The notes under the pieces are model-generated. The model did not search any database and was not told where the DNA came from. It saw only the letters and a list, made by a program, of their open reading frames with translations. Shown here in pieces: positions 43,110 to 49,995 of a DNA stretch of 64,000 nucleotides (position 1 is its first letter; every line of letters begins with the position of its first letter). The stretch covers positions 1-64,000 of the forward strand of contig SKUB01000131.1 of the NCBI GenBank assembly GCA_007122315.1. The letters are read 5' to 3'. The position numbers and the translations under genes were made by a program. The DNA comes from Pseudomonadales bacterium (GTDB taxonomy: Bacteria; Pseudomonadota; Gammaproteobacteria; Pseudomonadales; Azotimanducaceae).

Positions 43110-44048
43110 ATGACGATCAGCGCCGGCATCGGTATCGGCAATTTCCCGTTCGCGGACGGGCCCGGCTTCTGGCGCTGGGTGGATCTGTGCGAAACAGGCG
43201 GAATCGACTCGATCTGGCAGTCCGACCGACTGGTTGGTCGCGAGCCCAACCTGGAATGCATGAGCGTGATGGCAGCGCTCGCCGGCGCCACGCGGCGCAT
43301 GAAGTTCGGCATGAACGTCGCCTCCCTCGGCCTGCGTGACCCATTCCTGATGGCCAAGCAGTGCGCCACGATCGACGTGCTGTCCGGCGGTCGCCTGCTG
43401 CCTGCCTTCGCCGTCGGCAGCGCCCTGGGCAGCGACTATGCTGCGCGCGGCGTACCCACCCGTGGACGCGGCCAGCGCACGAACGAGGGACTCGAACTCA
43501 TCGCTCGCCTGTGGCGGGAGGACGAGGTGGACTTCGACGGACGCTTCTATCAATACCGCGGCGCCTCCATCTCGCCACGGCCGATCCAGGATCCGATGCC
43601 GCTATGGGTTGGCGGCTCCGCTGACGCCGCCGTGGAACGCAGCGCTCGCTGGGGGACGGGCTGGCAGGCAGGTCTCGACACGCCAGAGCAGGTCAAGCCC
43701 GTGATCGCCGCGATCAAGGCCCGCGCTGCCGAACTCGACCGGCACATCGACGAGGATCACTTCGGCGCTGGCTTCGGGTTCCGGTTCGGGCGGCCGGAAG
43801 ACCCGGTTTCGCGCCGCTATCTCGACGCCCTCGAGAAGCGCCTCGGCAAGGATGCACTCCCGTTCGTGGCCATCGGCGACGCCGATACGATCATCGAACG
43901 CCTGCGCGACTACCATGCTGCCGGCGCACACAAGTTCATACTGCGTCCGATGGCGGCAGACGCGGAAGACATGCTCGCGCAGACCCGTCAATTGATCGAG
44001 CAGGTGCTGCCCGCGGTCGACGCCATGAATCGTGCTGCAGCGGCCTGA
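43110..44048 (+). CDS. LLM-class oxidoreductase
   Basis: This 312-residue luciferase-like barrel has WVDLCETGGIDSIWQSDRLV, ATRRMKFGMNVASLGLRDPFLMAKQ, FAVGSALGSDY and PIQDPMPLWVGGSADAAVERSARWGTGW, the normal landmarks of the class. Such enzymes use F420 or FMN; the F420 operon nearby favours F420. The ATG at 43110 is preferred to one 12 bases upstream, because GGGAG lies five bases ahead of it. It is divergent from fur. Downstream is the control region of the glucosylglycerate operon. Confidence 0.87.
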   Translation: MTISAGIGIGNFPFADGPGFWRWVDLCETGGIDSIWQSDRLVGREPNLECMSVMAALAGATRRMKFGMNVASLGLRDPFLMAKQCATIDVLSGGRLLPAFAVGSALGSDYAARGVPTRGRGQRTNEGLELIARLWREDEVDFDGRFYQYRGASISPRPIQDPMPLWVGGSADAAVERSARWGTGWQAGLDTPEQVKPVIAAIKARAAELDRHIDEDHFGAGFGFRFGRPEDPVSRRYLDALEKRLGKDALPFVAIGDADTIIERLRDYHAAGAHKFILRPMAADAEDMLAQTRQLIEQVLPAVDAMNRAAAA

Positions 44049-44068
44049 AGCAGCAACGCAGCCTGTTA

Positions 44069-44085
44069 TGCACCTCTTTGGTGCA
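44069..44085. promoter_or_regulatory. NtrC binding site (perfect palindrome)
   Basis: TGCACC-TCTTT-GGTGCA matches the NtrC consensus (TGCACC, five bases, GGTGCA) at all twelve palindromic positions. It lies about 120 bases upstream of a sigma-54 promoter sequence and about 165 bases ahead of the predicted start site, a usual place for an NtrC enhancer. It is near the end of the upstream LLM gene but outside it. Only one clear site is seen. Confidence 0.7.
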
Positions 44086-44207
44086 ACAAAGCGGTCAAAT
44101 GCAGGCCTGCCGCGGAGGCATCGAGCCGCGGACACCCTGGTCCGGCCGCCCGGGTTGCAGCCCACCGGGTTCCTGCCATCCGGTTCCCTCCGGCCAGCTG
44201 CGCCCGA

Positions 44208-44223
44208 TGGCACGGGTTCTGCT
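44208..44223 (+). promoter_or_regulatory. Sigma-54 promoter of the glucosylglycerate operon
   Basis: TGGCACGGGTTCTGCT matches the -24/-12 consensus TGGCACG-N4-TTGCW with one mismatch (C for the first T of the -12 block). The invariant GG and GC have the required spacing. Transcription would start near 44234, 61 bases ahead of the ATG at 44295. Together with the NtrC palindrome upstream it predicts activation under nitrogen limitation. Confidence 0.7.
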
Positions 44224-44294
44224 TGCATCCCGCTATTGCCCGGAAGGGTTCGGCGGAGCGTTGAGCGGTGGATATCGCGCGCAGGACGTTGGCC

Positions 44295-45125
44295 ATGAGG
44301 ACACAATTCCTCATCTTCACGGATCTCGACGGCACGCTGCTCGATGAGCGTTACCGCTTTGATGACGCCAGCGTCGTCCTGGCCGAAATCCGGAAACGCG
44401 GCATTCCCCTCATCCTGACGTCGAGCAAGACCCTCGCTGAAATGCGCCTGCTCCGGCGCGCCATGGACATCAGCCATCCGCTGATCTTCGAGAACGGCGC
44501 CGGCCTCGCCCTGCCGGAAGACTATTTCCGCAGCAACACCACCCCGGACCCGAGGGCGCCGCTGCGCGTCGAACATTTCGGCCCAACCTATGACGAGATC
44601 CGGGCCACGCTCACGCGACTGCGCGATCGCCATCAGTTTCCGTTCCGCGGCTTCGGCGACATGGCGGCGAAGGACGTCGCCGCGCTCACCGGACTCGATG
44701 AAATCGCCGCCCAGCGCGCCCGGCAGAGGCATGGCACGGAACCCATAGTATGGGAGGGTTCCGAAGCCATTCGCCGGGACTTCATCGCCGAACTCGAGCG
44801 CGCGGGCCTGCGTGCGGTCAGCGGCGGCCGCTTTCTTCACATCATGCCGCGCATCGACAAGGCTGAGGCCATGCGCGAGCTGGTGGGCCGCTTCACTGCT
44901 GCGCATCCGGATGTCCGTTACCGTGTGATTGCAGCAGGCGACAGTCCCAACGATGCAGAAATGCTGCAACTGGCGGATCTGGCCGTGGTGATCCGCCGGC
45001 CAGACTCGAGCTGGATGCCGCTCAAGCGCCGGGAAGGCGTGATCCGCTCTCCGGTACCGGGACCTGCCGGATGGCAACTGTGCCTCGAGCGCATTCTGCG
45101 CGAGGATCCCGGAGATGAGACATGA
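44295..45125 (+). CDS. Glucosyl/mannosyl-3-phosphoglycerate phosphatase (HAD, MpgP-like)
   Basis: This 276-residue HAD phosphatase has motif I FTDLDGTLLDE, motif II LTSSKT, and the late motif AAGDSPNDAEML. FENGAGLALPEDYF and the cap region match mannosyl-3-phosphoglycerate phosphatases. It removes phosphate from the sugar phosphoglycerate made by the next gene, giving the free compatible solute. A GTG at 44268, 27 bases upstream and in frame, is an alternative start. Its stop overlaps the synthase ATG (ATGA). NtrC and sigma-54 sites lie upstream. Confidence 0.88.
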   Translation: MRTQFLIFTDLDGTLLDERYRFDDASVVLAEIRKRGIPLILTSSKTLAEMRLLRRAMDISHPLIFENGAGLALPEDYFRSNTTPDPRAPLRVEHFGPTYDEIRATLTRLRDRHQFPFRGFGDMAAKDVAALTGLDEIAAQRARQRHGTEPIVWEGSEAIRRDFIAELERAGLRAVSGGRFLHIMPRIDKAEAMRELVGRFTAAHPDVRYRVIAAGDSPNDAEMLQLADLAVVIRRPDSSWMPLKRREGVIRSPVPGPAGWQLCLERILREDPGDET

Positions 45126-46375
45126 GCGATTTCTTTCAGAACGGCATCATCACCACCCTGCATCAACTCGCCCATCGCCCGCTCGAGGATCTCGAATCCG
45201 AACTGGTCCAGTTCGCCCGCCATCGCCCCATGGCACTGGTACTACCGAGTCTGTACTCCGAACTCGAGGGGCCCGCCCTCGAACACATCGTCGATGAATT
45301 GGCCAAGGTGCCCTACCTCAGTCAGATCGTGATCGGCCTCGACCGCGCCGACGAAGAGCAGTACCGCCATGCGGTACGTTACTTCGGCCGCCTGCCGCAG
45401 CACCATCGAATCCTCTGGAACGACGGTCCGCGCCTTGGGGCGATCGACGCCAGCCTCGCCGAGCGCGGGCTCGCGCCCATGGAGCTCGGCAAGGGACGCA
45501 ACGTCTGGTACTGCCTGGGCTACATACAAGCTTCGGGAATTGCCCAGGCCGTCGCCCTGCACGACTGTGACATTCTCACCTACGACCGCCACATGCTGGC
45601 ACGGCTGATTTATCCCGTCGTGAATCCGCTGTTCAACTACGCCTTCTGCAAAGGCTACTACCCGCGAGTGGCATCCGGACAACTCAATGGCCGCGTCTGT
45701 CGGCTGCTCGTGACGCCGTTGAGTCGTGCGCTCCGGCAGGTCCTCGGCCACAACCCCTTCCTCGAGTATCTGGACAGCTTTCGCTACCCGCTGGCGGGCG
45801 AATTCTCCATGCAGGTGGACGTGCTGCGCGACCTGCGCATTCCCAGCGACTGGGGGCTCGAGATCGGCGTCCTCTCCGAGGTCTTCCGCAATTACGGCAG
45901 TCAGCGGGTGTGCCAGGTGGACGTCGCCGACAACTATGACCACAAGCACCAGCCGTTGTCGGTGAACGACCCGGGCGCGGGGCTCGCCCGCATGAGTACG
46001 GACATCGTCAAGGCCTTGTTCCGCAAGCTCGCGACGACGGGAGAGGTGTTCGACATGGGCACGATCCGCACCATCAAGGCCACCTACTACCGCATGGCTC
46101 TGGACTTCGTTCAGAGCTACTACAACGACGCGCTCATCAACGGCCTGACCCTCGATCGTGACAAGGAAGAGCGGGCAGTGGAGCTGTTCGCCGCGAACAT
46201 TCTCACGGCGGGCGAGATCTTTCTCGACAAGCCTCAGGAGACGCCCTTCATCCCCAGCTGGAACCGTGTTCGCAGCGCCCTCCCCGACATCTTCGATCAG
46301 CTGCACGCCGCCGTCGATCAGGACTACAGGGAGGCCCGCTCCAGCCTGCGGGTGGTCGCTCAGCGCGCCGTTTGA
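45122..46375 (+). CDS. gpgS: Glucosyl-3-phosphoglycerate synthase
   Basis: This 417-residue GT-A glycosyltransferase is of the glucosyl-3-phosphoglycerate synthase type. It transfers glucose from NDP-glucose to 3-phosphoglycerate. LVLPSLYSELEGPALEHIVDEL opens the nucleotide-binding half, VALHDCDILTYDR carries the metal-binding Asp-x-Asp-like motif, and the later KHQPLSVNDPGAGLARMSTDI resembles the acceptor region. Pairing with an MpgP-like phosphatase and a GH13 phosphorylase supports glucosylglycerate rather than mannosylglycerate. Its stop (TGA) lies directly against the convergent stop of the phosphorylase gene, the two making TGATCA. Confidence 0.85.
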   Translation: MSDFFQNGIITTLHQLAHRPLEDLESELVQFARHRPMALVLPSLYSELEGPALEHIVDELAKVPYLSQIVIGLDRADEEQYRHAVRYFGRLPQHHRILWNDGPRLGAIDASLAERGLAPMELGKGRNVWYCLGYIQASGIAQAVALHDCDILTYDRHMLARLIYPVVNPLFNYAFCKGYYPRVASGQLNGRVCRLLVTPLSRALRQVLGHNPFLEYLDSFRYPLAGEFSMQVDVLRDLRIPSDWGLEIGVLSEVFRNYGSQRVCQVDVADNYDHKHQPLSVNDPGAGLARMSTDIVKALFRKLATTGEVFDMGTIRTIKATYYRMALDFVQSYYNDALINGLTLDRDKEERAVELFAANILTAGEIFLDKPQETPFIPSWNRVRSALPDIFDQLHAAVDQDYREARSSLRVVAQRAV

Positions 46376-48166
46376 TCAGGCAGCATGGGCCTGCAACCAG
46401 AGACAGCGATAAGGCGCCACATCGATCCCGTCGACACTGGCGAATGCCTCGTCGCGAATCCGATCCACGACCTGCTCCGCGCAACCAAGTGCATCGAGGG
46501 CGGTCGCATCGAGATGCCTGATGCCTGCAGTCACGTTGATCACCACTGCAACCGCATCGACGCCCTCACCTCTGATCAGGGACACCCAGCTGTCTCCCAG
46601 CGGAACGAAGCGCTGCCTCGCAGCGGGAGAAAACGCGGGCAGCCTGCGTCGCAGCCGCAGCATTTCAGTCAACGCGCCGAACACCCGCGCCGTCGGCGTG
46701 CGCAGATCCGTGAGCAGCGCCTCCACCTCATCGAGTTGGCACTGTCTGCGGTTGATCGACCGCGTCCGACCGCTGCGTTCGACGCCGTCGAGATCATTCG
46801 GCGTCGCCAGCAGACTGTGCAGGTAGAGCGCGGGGACACCCTGCAGGCTCAAGGCAATGGCCTGGCTGCACAGGAAGCGCTCCACCTGCCACTGATCCTC
46901 GCCCGCGAACGTACCCCGCAACGCGTCGAACAGGGAAACGTTGATTTCGTACGGCCGCTGGGTGCCGTCGGCCAGCATGCGCATGCTGACGAAGCCGCCG
47001 AAGTCGTGCATCAGGTCCACCAGCGCTCTCAGGTCGTCTTCCGGGACGAGCCCTTCCGCCGGTCGCAAGCCGATTCCGTCGTGGGACGCGGTGAAGTTGA
47101 GGAACGTGCAGCCGCCAGGCGGAGGCTCCAGCACAGCGCCCCACTGCATCAGATGACGGCTGCTTCCTTTTATCAGGGCGTGCAGAACCAGCGGCGCCAG
47201 CGAGAACTGGTAGACCATGTGCGCTTCGTCACCGGAACCGAAGTAGCTGACGTTCTCGCTATGGGGAACATTGGTTTCGGTGACGAGCACCACCGGGTCC
47301 TCGTCCGGATGGCAAGCCAGTTCGCTCACCAGGCGCAGCACGCGCACCACCGCATGGGTGTTGGGATGGTGTATGCAGGGTGTTCCGATCTCCTTCCAGA
47401 GGTAGGCGATGGCATCGAGACGAATGATGCGCGCGCCGGCGCGCAGGTAGTGGCAGAGCACCCGTACCATCTCCGCAAGCACGCGCGGCCGGCTGAAGTC
47501 CAGGTCGATCTGATCCTCGCTGAACGTTGCCCAGACGTGACGCAGACCACGATAGGTGTGAATCGGCACCAGCAGCGGTGTGTTCCTGGGGCGCACGACC
47601 CGGGTCACGTCCGTGCCCGGCTCCAGGGTGAGGAAGAAGCCACGACCGGGTTCGCGATCGTTGACGAAATCCATGAACCACAGGCTTTCCCGGGACACGT
47701 GGTTGATGACCAGATCCGCCATCAAAGCGAAGTCCTGGCTCAGGGCGCTGATGTCCGACCAGTCGCCGAGCGCAGGATCGACGCTGTAGAAATCGATGAC
47801 CGAGAAGCCATCGTCGGAGCTGAAGGGAAAGAACGGCAACACATGCACCGCATTCACCACCCCATCCAGCCGGCTCCCGAGGAAGCGGCGGAGGGTGGCC
47901 AGCGGTGCTTCGCCCGGCTGCGAGAGCGTGTTGCCGTAGGTGATGAGCACCACGTCTTCGGCCGACCAGTGCCTGGGCTGCAATTGCCGCGGACGTTCAG
48001 CCTCCGGGACGGAGCTGCGGCATTCGGCAATGGTCTCGAGGATGGCACGGAGGACATCCGCGCCCGCATCAGCACCATAGATCTGCGCAAGCAGATTCCG
48101 CAGCGCGTGCACCCGCTGCGCAAAACCGGCACGCGGGTCCTCGAAATTGGCACCTTGGAGATTCAA
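46376..48166 (-). CDS. GH13_18 glucosylglycerate (or sucrose-type) phosphorylase
   Basis: This protein of about 596 residues is a GH13 family phosphorylase. It has region I LMADLVINHVS, region II ARIIRLDAIAYLW (nucleophile Asp), region III VLVTETNVPH (acid/base Glu) and region IV NFTASHDGIG. YGNTLSQPG and VHVLPFFPFSSDDGFSV are typical of subfamily 18, which contains sucrose, sucrose-6-phosphate and glucosylglycerate phosphorylases. The synthase genes next door make glucosylglycerate the likely substrate, so stored solute would be recovered as glucose-1-phosphate. No ATG is near the conserved start; the TTG at 48166 is my choice and is uncertain. Confidence 0.85.
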   Translation of the reverse strand: MNLQGANFEDPRAGFAQRVHALRNLLAQIYGADAGADVLRAILETIAECRSSVPEAERPRQLQPRHWSAEDVVLITYGNTLSQPGEAPLATLRRFLGSRLDGVVNAVHVLPFFPFSSDDGFSVIDFYSVDPALGDWSDISALSQDFALMADLVINHVSRESLWFMDFVNDREPGRGFFLTLEPGTDVTRVVRPRNTPLLVPIHTYRGLRHVWATFSEDQIDLDFSRPRVLAEMVRVLCHYLRAGARIIRLDAIAYLWKEIGTPCIHHPNTHAVVRVLRLVSELACHPDEDPVVLVTETNVPHSENVSYFGSGDEAHMVYQFSLAPLVLHALIKGSSRHLMQWGAVLEPPPGGCTFLNFTASHDGIGLRPAEGLVPEDDLRALVDLMHDFGGFVSMRMLADGTQRPYEINVSLFDALRGTFAGEDQWQVERFLCSQAIALSLQGVPALYLHSLLATPNDLDGVERSGRTRSINRRQCQLDEVEALLTDLRTPTARVFGALTEMLRLRRRLPAFSPAARQRFVPLGDSWVSLIRGEGVDAVAVVINVTAGIRHLDATALDALGCAEQVVDRIRDEAFASVDGIDVAPYRCLWLQAHAA

Positions 48167-48333
48167 GTCGCTGTTTCCGCATTCAGACCCACGCGCGCGT
48201 GGATCCCGTTTGTCGGTCTTACCAGGGTGACATGGCTCCCGACCATGACCGCCCTCATGTTGCCACAGCCGTGCATCACGTCGGTAATGGCGGCAGGAAG
48301 CCCTGATGCTTCGATCCCAGGGACAGCTGCAGC

Positions 48334-49995
48334 GTGAGGATGACTTCGGTTGCAGACGCCAACATGACCTCACTCGACTGGTGGGTCGTGATTGTCTATC
48401 TCACGGGCATGATCCTGCTCGCCGTGTACATCGCCCGCGGCCAGCGCGATCGGCGCGACTACTATCTTGCGGGCAATCGTTCGGGCCCGGTCAGCATTGC
48501 CCTGTCCACCATGGCGACCCAGTGTTCCACCAACAGCATTCTCGGTGCCCCGGCGTTCGTCGCATTCTCCGTCGGCGGCGGACTGCTGTGGCTGCAGTAC
48601 GAACTTGCGGTACCGCTTGCCATGATCGTGATCATGGCGCTGATTCTCCCCACCCTGCGCCAGCTCCGCCTGGTTTCTGTATACGCCTATCTGGAACAAC
48701 GCTTTGGGCTCACGACCCGCATCGTGATGTCACTGGTGTTCCAACTGGTTCGGGCTTTCGCAACCGGCGTCACCGTCTACGGCATCGGCCTGGTCCTTGC
48801 GGTATGCCTGGAAACCGACTTTCTCACTGCCGTACTGCTGTTGGCGGCCGTGACCATCATCTACGACGCCATCGGTGGTCTGCGCGCCGTCATCGTCAGC
48901 GACGTGATCCAGCTCATCGTCCTCAGCGGCGCCATCGGGCTTGCGATCTGGGTCGCGGTCGATGCGCTCGGCGGAATCGGCAACGTCGTCGGCTCGGTTC
49001 CGGCGGACCGTCTCACCAGCCTGGATTTCAGCCACACCGGATGGGGTGATGGGCATGACTATGCGTTCTGGCCCATGCTTATCGGCGGCCTGTTCCTGTA
49101 CGTGAGCTACTACGGCTGCGATCAGAGTCAAACCCAACGCCTGCTGGCGTCCCGGACCGTCGCGGATGGCAATCGCGCCCTGCTTCTGAACGGCCTCCTG
49201 CGTTTTCCCCTGGTGCTCAGCTACTGCCTGCTCGGCGTCTGCCTGGCGGCCTACGCGACCGCGGACCCCGGGTTCGTCGAACGCCTGCCGCTGCGGGAAA
49301 CGGCGGGCGGTGACCAGGCTCCGAACTACAACCTCGCCGTTCCCCAGTTTGTGTTCGAACAGTTTCCTCCCGGCCTGGTCGGGCTGGTGATGGTGGGCCT
49401 GTTCGCCGCCGCAATGTCCTCGCTGGACTCGGTACTCAACGCCCTGTCCGCCACCACCATGGAAGACCTCGTCCGGCGCTTCCGCAGGACACCGCTGTCG
49501 CAACGCAGTGAATTCCTGCTGGCCAAGCTGCTGACGGTGGCCTGGGGGTTGCTGACCGTCGGCATGGCATTTCTCGTCGAGACCATCGCCGACTCGGTAC
49601 TGGTGGCAATCAACATGATCGGCTCACTCATCAATGGCCCCCTGCTGGCCGTGTTCCTGCTGGGCCTGCTGACCCGTCGGACACGGGAGTTCGGCGTTCT
49701 CTGCGGCCTTGCCGCCGGCTTCGCAGTCAACATCTGGCTCTGGGCCTACCATCCGGATATCTCCTGGCTGTGGTGGAACGTCACCGGCTTCGCCGCCACC
49801 AGCGCCACCGCTCTGATCCTTGCGTCGGTCGGCGCACGTCCGCGCCAGCCTGCTCCCAGCTTCGACCGAAGCGGTCTGCAGCGAGCCTGGTGGCCCGCCT
49901 ATCTGGGCCTCGTTGCCTGGGCCGTGGTGATCCTCGCAGTGGGTGCAGGCTTCACGATGCTGGCCGCGTCCCACACTGCCGGCGCTTTTCCGTGA
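48334..49995 (+). CDS. Sodium:solute symporter (SSS, SGLT-like)
   Basis: This is a membrane protein of about 553 residues with roughly 14 hydrophobic segments. DYYLAGNRSGPVSIALSTMATQCSTNSILG and MVGLFAAAMSSLDSVLNALSATTMEDL are the sodium-site regions of the SSS family, in the branch nearer to sugar (SGLT) carriers than PutP. It is divergent from the GH13 phosphorylase, so it may import glucosylglycerate or a related sugar. The start may be the GTG at 48334, or an ATG at 48340 or 48364; the ribosome site is weak for all. A strong promoter overlaps its stop codon. Confidence 0.87.
   Translation: MRMTSVADANMTSLDWWVVIVYLTGMILLAVYIARGQRDRRDYYLAGNRSGPVSIALSTMATQCSTNSILGAPAFVAFSVGGGLLWLQYELAVPLAMIVIMALILPTLRQLRLVSVYAYLEQRFGLTTRIVMSLVFQLVRAFATGVTVYGIGLVLAVCLETDFLTAVLLLAAVTIIYDAIGGLRAVIVSDVIQLIVLSGAIGLAIWVAVDALGGIGNVVGSVPADRLTSLDFSHTGWGDGHDYAFWPMLIGGLFLYVSYYGCDQSQTQRLLASRTVADGNRALLLNGLLRFPLVLSYCLLGVCLAAYATADPGFVERLPLRETAGGDQAPNYNLAVPQFVFEQFPPGLVGLVMVGLFAAAMSSLDSVLNALSATTMEDLVRRFRRTPLSQRSEFLLAKLLTVAWGLLTVGMAFLVETIADSVLVAINMIGSLINGPLLAVFLLGLLTRRTREFGVLCGLAAGFAVNIWLWAYHPDISWLWWNVTGFAATSATALILASVGARPRQPAPSFDRSGLQRAWWPAYLGLVAWAVVILAVGAGFTMLAASHTAGAFP

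Follow-up and report, generated by a model that had tools for sequence, protein, structure and literature searches.

Conserved NtrC-type and sigma-54-type motifs upstream of gpgP-gpgS suggest nitrogen control of glucosylglycerate synthesis in a Pseudomonadales genome

We analyzed a stretch of 64,000 nucleotides from a Pseudomonadales bacterium of the Azotimanducaceae (GCA_007122315.1, contig SKUB01000131.1, positions 1 to 64,000 of the forward strand; in the following the window), in which two genes for the probable synthesis of the osmolyte glucosylglycerate, gpgP and gpgS, are preceded by a candidate binding site for the nitrogen regulator NtrC and by a predicted promoter element for sigma-54 (RpoN). 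Judged from the sequence comparisons described below, it is very probable that gpgP-gpgS is transcribed from a sigma-54 promoter at 44208-44223, which would be activated by phosphorylated NtrC at the enhancer at 44069-44085, so that nitrogen shortage would lead to glucosylglycerate. The region contains the following features:

ends 44048, plus strand: luciferase-like oxidoreductase gene, the upstream neighbour of the palindrome
44069..44085, no strand assigned: predicted NtrC box TGCACCTCTTTGGTGCA, TGCACC-N5-GGTGCA, centre at -157 relative to the predicted transcription start
44208..44223, plus strand: predicted sigma-54 (-24/-12) promoter element TGGCACGGGTTCTGCT, one mismatch to TGGCACG-N4-TTGCW
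44268..45125, plus strand: gpgP, HAD-family glucosyl(mannosyl)-3-phosphoglycerate phosphatase (TIGR01486, 216.9 bits, cut-off 164.75)
45122..46375, plus strand: gpgS, probable glucosyl-3-phosphoglycerate synthase (NF040724 GpgS_Meth, E 7.6e-107)

A GpgS-family synthase adjoins a HAD-IIB phosphatase here, as in the glucosylglycerate synthesis operon, and the order of phosphatase and synthase gene given in an earlier annotation made from the letters alone (the first-pass annotation) agrees with these assignments by family similarity. Both genes overlap by 4 bases, and the 80 named loci of our collection all have gpgP before gpgS in the same orientation, with gaps of at most 434 bases. The GTG at 44268 was taken as the start of gpgP as it lines up with the ATG of three congeners in the genus alignment; the alternative is the ATG at 44298. 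GpgP lies above the cut-off of the MPGP family (TIGR01486) and below those of the narrower equivalog models, and its closest solved relatives in the Protein Data Bank (PDB) are mannosyl-3-phosphoglycerate phosphatases. For GpgS the best model is GpgS_Meth (357.6 bits, under the equivalog cut-off of 700), and NF010496 gives 70.2 bits (under the cut-off of 262); its PDB matches are weak, the best one (E 3.3e-6) being to GpgS. The PDB relatives of the window enzymes agree at the family level. As the synthase reaches no curated equivalog cut-off, we infer its sugar donor and substrate. In the species collection, a Pseudomonadales metagenome-assembled genome (MAG; L075) and a gammaproteobacterial MAG (L076) come closest among the named records.

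The palindrome starts 21 bases past the stop codon ending at 44048 and is separated from the sigma-54 element by a gap of 122 bases, which fits the distance of about 120 bases in the first-pass annotation. Its description of the element as one base off the consensus with correct GG/GC spacing was accurate as well: 10 bases lie between GG and GC. Following the -12 convention for sigma-54 promoters, the transcription start is predicted near 44234. The window box fits the 17-bp NtrC box TGCACCAnnnTGGTGCA, in the form given in the accessible part of PMC8743547, at 13 of the 14 defined positions. A scan of the genome (3,988,446 bases in 396 contigs, 93% complete) revealed a single exact copy of TGCACC-N5-GGTGCA and none of a backwards control pattern, and with up to one mismatch 19 sites versus 6 for the control. 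At up to two mismatches, the number of matches in the window is not above chance for either motif (6 versus 5.1 expected for the palindrome, 11 versus 13.0 for the sigma-54 motif). From the window itself there is modest evidence for the palindrome and none for the sigma-54 match taken alone, and the argument therefore rests on comparison and conservation. Fourteen one-mismatch palindrome sites of the same genome were checked for nitrogen genes; what flanks them is mostly open reading frame (ORF) noise, from which we derived no regulon. Within 43950-44350, a crude scan with a simple consensus detected no sigma-70-like promoter and a simple scan for a GC stem with T run detected no intrinsic terminator (0 sites); both readings of this region were discarded.

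The gpgS gene was found in all six searched genomes of the genus. Five of them, the window genome and four congeners, entered the promoter comparison, while the contig of G005 begins inside gpgS and was excluded. TGGCAC-N6-TGC is kept in 5/5 at the same distance from gpgP in otherwise diverged flanks, and an NtrC-type palindrome with 0-2 mismatches is present in 5/5, located 109-139 bases before the sigma-54 element (start to start). The box shifts in position and letters within the genus and retains its form; because the distance between box and element varies, the boxes are not aligned with each other in the genus alignment. Absence of both motifs in close relatives with the same operon, which the first-pass annotation had named as the outcome that would speak against a switch, was not seen among these genus members, as all five keep both.

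To extend the comparison beyond the genus, loci were collected from 80 named records and from 34 places found in the gpgS search. The operon of 60 of the 113 loci is headed by a P-loop kinase gene immediately preceding gpgP. Family searches gave only weak similarity, to models of phosphoribulokinase, uridine kinase and pantothenate kinase; we take this enzyme to be a glycerate kinase. In two Methylophaga loci (L120:3230-5008 and L125:3230-5008) the kinase and the phosphatase GpgP are fused in one ORF of 592 aa. We scanned 350 bases before the operon head, counted a palindrome with up to two mismatches as NtrC box and compared the counts with 500 rounds of shuffling. For set 1, a length filter left out L038, L083 and L117 (110/113 loci; the rows of L038 and L083 are artefacts with an operon head beyond the locus end), 9 promoters with similar upstream regions were dropped and 101 kept. 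For set 2 we selected by hand, usually with one or two places for each genus, among the places listed for a search in which 206 of 390 genomes matched; from 60 promoters taken, 53 were kept (6 were similar to set 1 and 1 within the set). The pooled sample comprises 154 non-redundant promoters, 72 gpgP-led and 82 kinase-led. Set 1 supersedes an earlier count of 112 loci, which contained duplicates (e.g. L034/L075, L036/L076, L040/L085) and was scanned before gpgP even where the kinase leads.

In the gpgP-led promoters of set 1, the NtrC box occurs in 30/48 (shuffle mean 1.0, maximum 5), the sigma-54 element in 23/48 (mean 0.8, maximum 6) and both in 18/48 (mean 0.02, maximum 1). Set 2 gave a similar picture with 12/24, 12/24 and 8/24 for gpgP-led promoters (shuffle means 0.6, 0.5 and 0.02) and 9/29, 18/29 and 6/29 for kinase-led ones (0.65, 0.57 and 0.01), the shuffle maxima being 4, 3 and 1. 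The kinase-led promoters of set 1 contain the sigma-54 element in 14/53 (mean 0.7, maximum 3). Natural sequences served as a second control: of 434 windows taken upstream of other genes in the named loci, 15 contain an NtrC box, 15 a sigma-54 element in a relaxed form (TGGYA-N7-TGHW) and 4 both, against 57, 95 and 35 of the 154 operon promoters. Culturable species with both motifs include Onishia taeanensis (L133), Litchfieldella anticariensis (L138) and Marinobacterium lacunae (L131). An earlier natural control had already counted the NtrC box in 22, the sigma-54 element in 10 and both in 9 of 71 regions directly before gpgP, and 25, 25 and 3 of 487 before other genes. The motif search in related genomes that the first-pass annotation had recommended turned out in its favor, since both motifs are many times more frequent than in shuffled and natural controls in two promoter sets. 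One of the three windows with both motifs in the earlier natural control precedes a type III glutamine synthetase gene just upstream of the glucosylglycerate operon (L124:1280-3789; NtrC box and sigma-54 element with 1 mismatch each), and the other two belong to Methylophaga loci, two genes before the operon.

Both motifs are constrained in spacing as well as in letters. The palindrome is found in 57/154 promoters with a spacer of 5 and in 0-6 with every other spacer from 0 to 12, and the half-site TGCACC ranks first among 120 permutations; the next one, CGCACT with 21 (median 1), resembles the same site. An exact TGGCAC-Nk-TGC is present in 30/154 at k=6 and in 0-6 when k takes any other value between 0 and 13; the relaxed element is present in 95/154, compared with 1-13 at the remaining spacings between 2 and 12. 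The spacer letters of the box were free in the search. Among the 57 boxes, the first is A in 34, the last is T in 44 and the middle three are A or T in 44, 45 and 43 (A-WWW-T), so the unsearched letters recover the published NtrC box TGCACCAnnnTGGTGCA.

The genome encodes the proteins required for such a switch. It contains one RpoN gene and one NtrC gene over the cut-off, the latter running to the end of contig C23, and NtrB is encoded directly before ntrC (372.4 bits, cut-off 240). Contig C291 begins with a 46-residue C-terminal piece of NtrC, whose recognition helix GWGRNTLTRKIKEL is close to the NtrC of PDB 1ntc; the three differences in this region are presumably alanine substitutions of the 1ntc construct, and the pieces on C23 and C291 probably belong to one gene. 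As a positive control we inspected the torF-family gene (TIGR02001 over the cut-off in L158) that precedes the P-II gene glnK in five genus members. Upstream of torF, 5/5 of them (L156, L157, L158, L160, L161) have NtrC-type palindromes followed by a sigma-54-like element 80 bases past the last box (GGGCAT or AGGCAT, N6, TGC; 3 mismatches), the best palindrome having 1 mismatch in G003 and 2 in G001, G002 and G004. The region just before glnK contains no NtrC box beyond 3-mismatch matches in the genus, because torF precedes glnK and the promoter lies before torF. This similar, weaker arrangement is supportive but not strong. In L158, an ammonium-transporter-like ORF was seen by eye after glnK.

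Several observations weigh against NtrC control, for the window or for the wider sample. NtrC promoters usually carry two or more boxes for oligomer assembly; the window promoter has one strong box, and the search for a second one there gave nothing convincing, as all remaining matches have 3 mismatches. In the genome of the window, each palindrome before torF-glnK has 3 mismatches. The products of gpgP and gpgS are assigned by similarity to families, with scores under the curated equivalog cut-offs. In L039 and L077, two close relatives with a gpgS 74% identical to that of the window, an NtrC box at up to two mismatches and the relaxed sigma-54 element are both missing. In the pooled promoters, which are a convenience sample in which alignments were used to predict operon heads and start codons, 97/154 have no palindrome at up to two mismatches (67 of them kinase-led) and 37/154, L039 among them, have neither motif. 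For kinase-led promoters of set 1, the NtrC box is found in 6/53 (shuffle mean 0.9, maximum 4) and both motifs in 1/53 (mean 0.01, maximum 1), which is not above the shuffle maximum. In Alteromonas, a sigma-54-like element precedes the kinase gene by 50-58 bases in all 11 named loci (-12 position T in 10, A in 1), and none of the 11 has an NtrC box at up to two mismatches. Finally, 11 of the 42 promoters in which both strict motifs are present have the box downstream of the predicted start. Taken together, NtrC control is best supported for gpgP-led operons, and kinase-led operons often have a sigma-54 element without a clear NtrC box, so that the evidence for NtrC is weaker there.

In the other 31 of the 42 promoters with both strict motifs the centre of the box is upstream of the predicted start, in 24 of these 31 between -165 and -108. 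In L106 (3557-3677), L129, L134 and L136 the box follows the sigma-54 element at a distance of about 100 bases and stands just ahead of gpgP, within the predicted leader. As NtrC enhancers can act from downstream in engineered settings, such a placement is possible. At the exact standard spacing after TGGCA, the -12 variants TGAA, TGAT, TGTA and TGTT occur in 9, 3, 8 and 5 loci, versus 0-1 at the neighbouring spacings tested. The C of the -12 element is replaced by A or T in Shewanella (L146, L152), Vibrio (L107, L123) and Thalassotalea (L099), and together with the 11 Alteromonas loci these elements stand 40-235 bases before the operon head. In both Vibrio loci a common small ORF (MWLSL...SPYGMP...), recognized by eye, lies about 20-180 bases before gpgP and after the sigma-54-like element; the Vibrio boxes are inside this ORF and may be a coding coincidence. 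We consider the chances to be even that NtrC/RpoN control of glucosylglycerate synthesis is widespread in Gammaproteobacteria with an origin independent of mycobacterial GlnR control, and that leader enhancers (Porticoccaceae and relatives, Neptuniibacter) and A or T at -12 (Shewanella, Vibrio, Thalassotalea, Alteromonas) represent natural variation of one conserved target in where the enhancer stands and how strong the promoter is.

For the window, the proposed order of events would be as follows. Under nitrogen shortage NtrB would phosphorylate NtrC, which would bind the enhancer at 44069-44085, loop to the closed RpoN polymerase at 44208-44223 and open the complex. Expression of gpgP-gpgS would then allow the cell to make glucosylglycerate, a nitrogen-free anionic solute that could substitute glutamate as counter-ion to potassium or sodium. 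We infer binding, activation, the nitrogen signal and the physiological role from the motifs with their conservation and their spacing and letter constraints, from the genes of NtrB, NtrC and RpoN and from the likeness to torF-glnK. The direct NtrC/RpoN switch put forward in the first-pass annotation is largely supported by conservation, enrichment over controls and the regulator genes.

Among the alternatives, salt as the main control fares best, with the sigma-54/NtrC promoter acting in a secondary role beside an unseen sigma-70 or stress promoter. Glucosylglycerate accumulates at high salinity according to the accessible part of PMC11009771, and the isolate name of the nearest named congener, a MAG, points to sediment as its presumable habitat. 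The scan of 43950-44350, crude as it is, gave no sigma-70-like promoter, and we regard salt as the leading signal as unlikely; it is compatible with the NtrC/sigma-54 explanation in any case. Somewhat less likely still is that the operon depends on sigma-54 and is activated in many lineages by another enhancer-binding protein, for example an osmotic or carbon sensor, and by NtrC only in some. Candidates exist, since besides NtrC six further matches to the NtrC model extend past the receiver domain in the genome, and a different activator would suit the Alteromonas loci and the kinase-led operons in general, in which the relaxed sigma-54 element (55/82) is far commoner than the NtrC box (15/82). 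In gpgP-led operons, the kind found in the window, the box is however as common as the relaxed sigma-54 element (42/72 and 40/72) and has the full published form including the unsearched spacer letters. That the palindrome is an RNA hairpin and no protein site, either as terminator of the luciferase-like oxidoreductase gene or as leader structure, is very improbable: any palindrome can pair as RNA, this one follows closely on a stop codon and in some lineages it is part of the predicted leader, but the terminator scan was negative, only 1 of the 57 boxes has a T run within the following 8 bases (6 bases with 5 or more T), and the boxes stand at varied distances yet retain the NtrC letters and the N5 spacing. 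A chance resemblance of GC-rich intergenic DNA to both motifs, which would agree with the window counts at two mismatches, is practically negligible in view of both motifs in 5/5 genus members, the joint enrichment far above shuffles in two sets and the fixed spacings.

Downstream of gpgS, two further genes complete the locus:

46376..48373, minus strand: GH13 sucrose-phosphorylase-like gene, probable glucosylglycerate phosphorylase (TIGR03852, 184 bits, cut-off 334.4)
48334..49995, plus strand: sodium:solute symporter (SSF) gene, a conserved neighbour (PF00474, 131.5 bits)

The GH13 gene is convergent with gpgP-gpgS and probably has a role in degradation; its PDB relatives include sucrose and glucosylglycerol phosphorylases, and a relative is present in 77 of the 80 named gpgS loci. 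The ORFs of phosphorylase and symporter, which run on opposite strands, have overlapping 5' ends (48334-48373), and for most relatives of the GH13 protein that do not belong to the genus the alignment begins only at about residue 58-142. Because of this overlap and these inner alignment starts, the start of the GH13 gene is uncertain, and the true start of the phosphorylase, the symporter or both is probably internal, leaving room for a divergent promoter region. The same neighbourhood of symporter and phosphorylase gene exists in congeners and in several further members of the family. Between 44300 and 49500 there are zero matches to the palindrome or the sigma-54 motif at two mismatches, so the degradation gene would lie outside the predicted NtrC/sigma-54 switch.

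An NtrC/sigma-54 switch on this operon would explain the build-up of a nitrogen-free protectant when nitrogen is scarce. The physiological premise of the first-pass annotation, namely glucosylglycerate under nitrogen limitation as replacement for glutamate, agrees with the accessible parts of three papers: glucosylglycerate is favoured at low nitrogen and can take the place of glutamate as counter-ion (PMC11009771), nitrogen-limited bacteria switch to this solute (PMC5924519), and Dinoroseobacter shibae uses it when nitrogen is limiting (PMC9062515). If the switch exists, the build-up at nitrogen limitation would have a one-step account, the choice of osmolyte would join the nitrogen stress response, and salt and nitrogen physiology would be linked in marine and halophilic bacteria in parallel to mycobacterial GlnR control; nitrogen limitation suggests itself as a handle for glucosylglycerate production. 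Our literature search, with most subscription papers outside its reach, found no NtrC or RpoN control of the pathway, and the literature found names no proteobacterial regulator of glucosylglycerate, the broader results being covered in part only. Within these limits the remark of the first-pass annotation that it knew of no description of such a switch agrees with our search for NtrC/RpoN, and it has to be qualified for nitrogen regulators in general, as a link between a nitrogen regulator and a GpgS gene appears not wholly without precedent, the nearest one being mycobacterial GlnR.

Compared with known systems, the arrangement resembles the enteric NtrC/sigma-54 promoters of the glnA and glnK-amtB type, with which it shares the -24/-12 element, the 17-bp form of the box, ntrB, ntrC and rpoN in the genome and, for the sampled operons, the position of 24 of 31 upstream boxes between -165 and -108. 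It differs in its target, which is the synthesis of a nitrogen-free osmolyte instead of nitrogen uptake or assimilation, and in the single strong box of the window. Cyanobacteria use NtcA and not NtrC. In nitrogen-poor marine cyanobacteria, glucosylglycerate accumulation was reportedly described by Klahn et al. in 2010, and our literature search brought up no promoter study for this group. The link of the solute to nitrogen poverty and glutamate replacement is common to both, as far as this work is cited in the accessible part of PMC11009771. In Mycobacterium smegmatis a nitrogen regulator likewise acts upstream of a glycosyltransferase gene, MSMEG_5084, which we take to be gpgS. GlnR is not a sigma-54 activator. 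According to the accessible part of PMC3662644, GlnR binds before MSMEG_5084, a group 2 glycosyl transferase in the table, whose expression under nitrogen limitation shows a 27.1-fold difference between the wild type and the glnR deletion; this OmpR-type regulator from another phylum is unrelated to NtrC, and both would place the synthesis of glucosylglycerate under nitrogen control.

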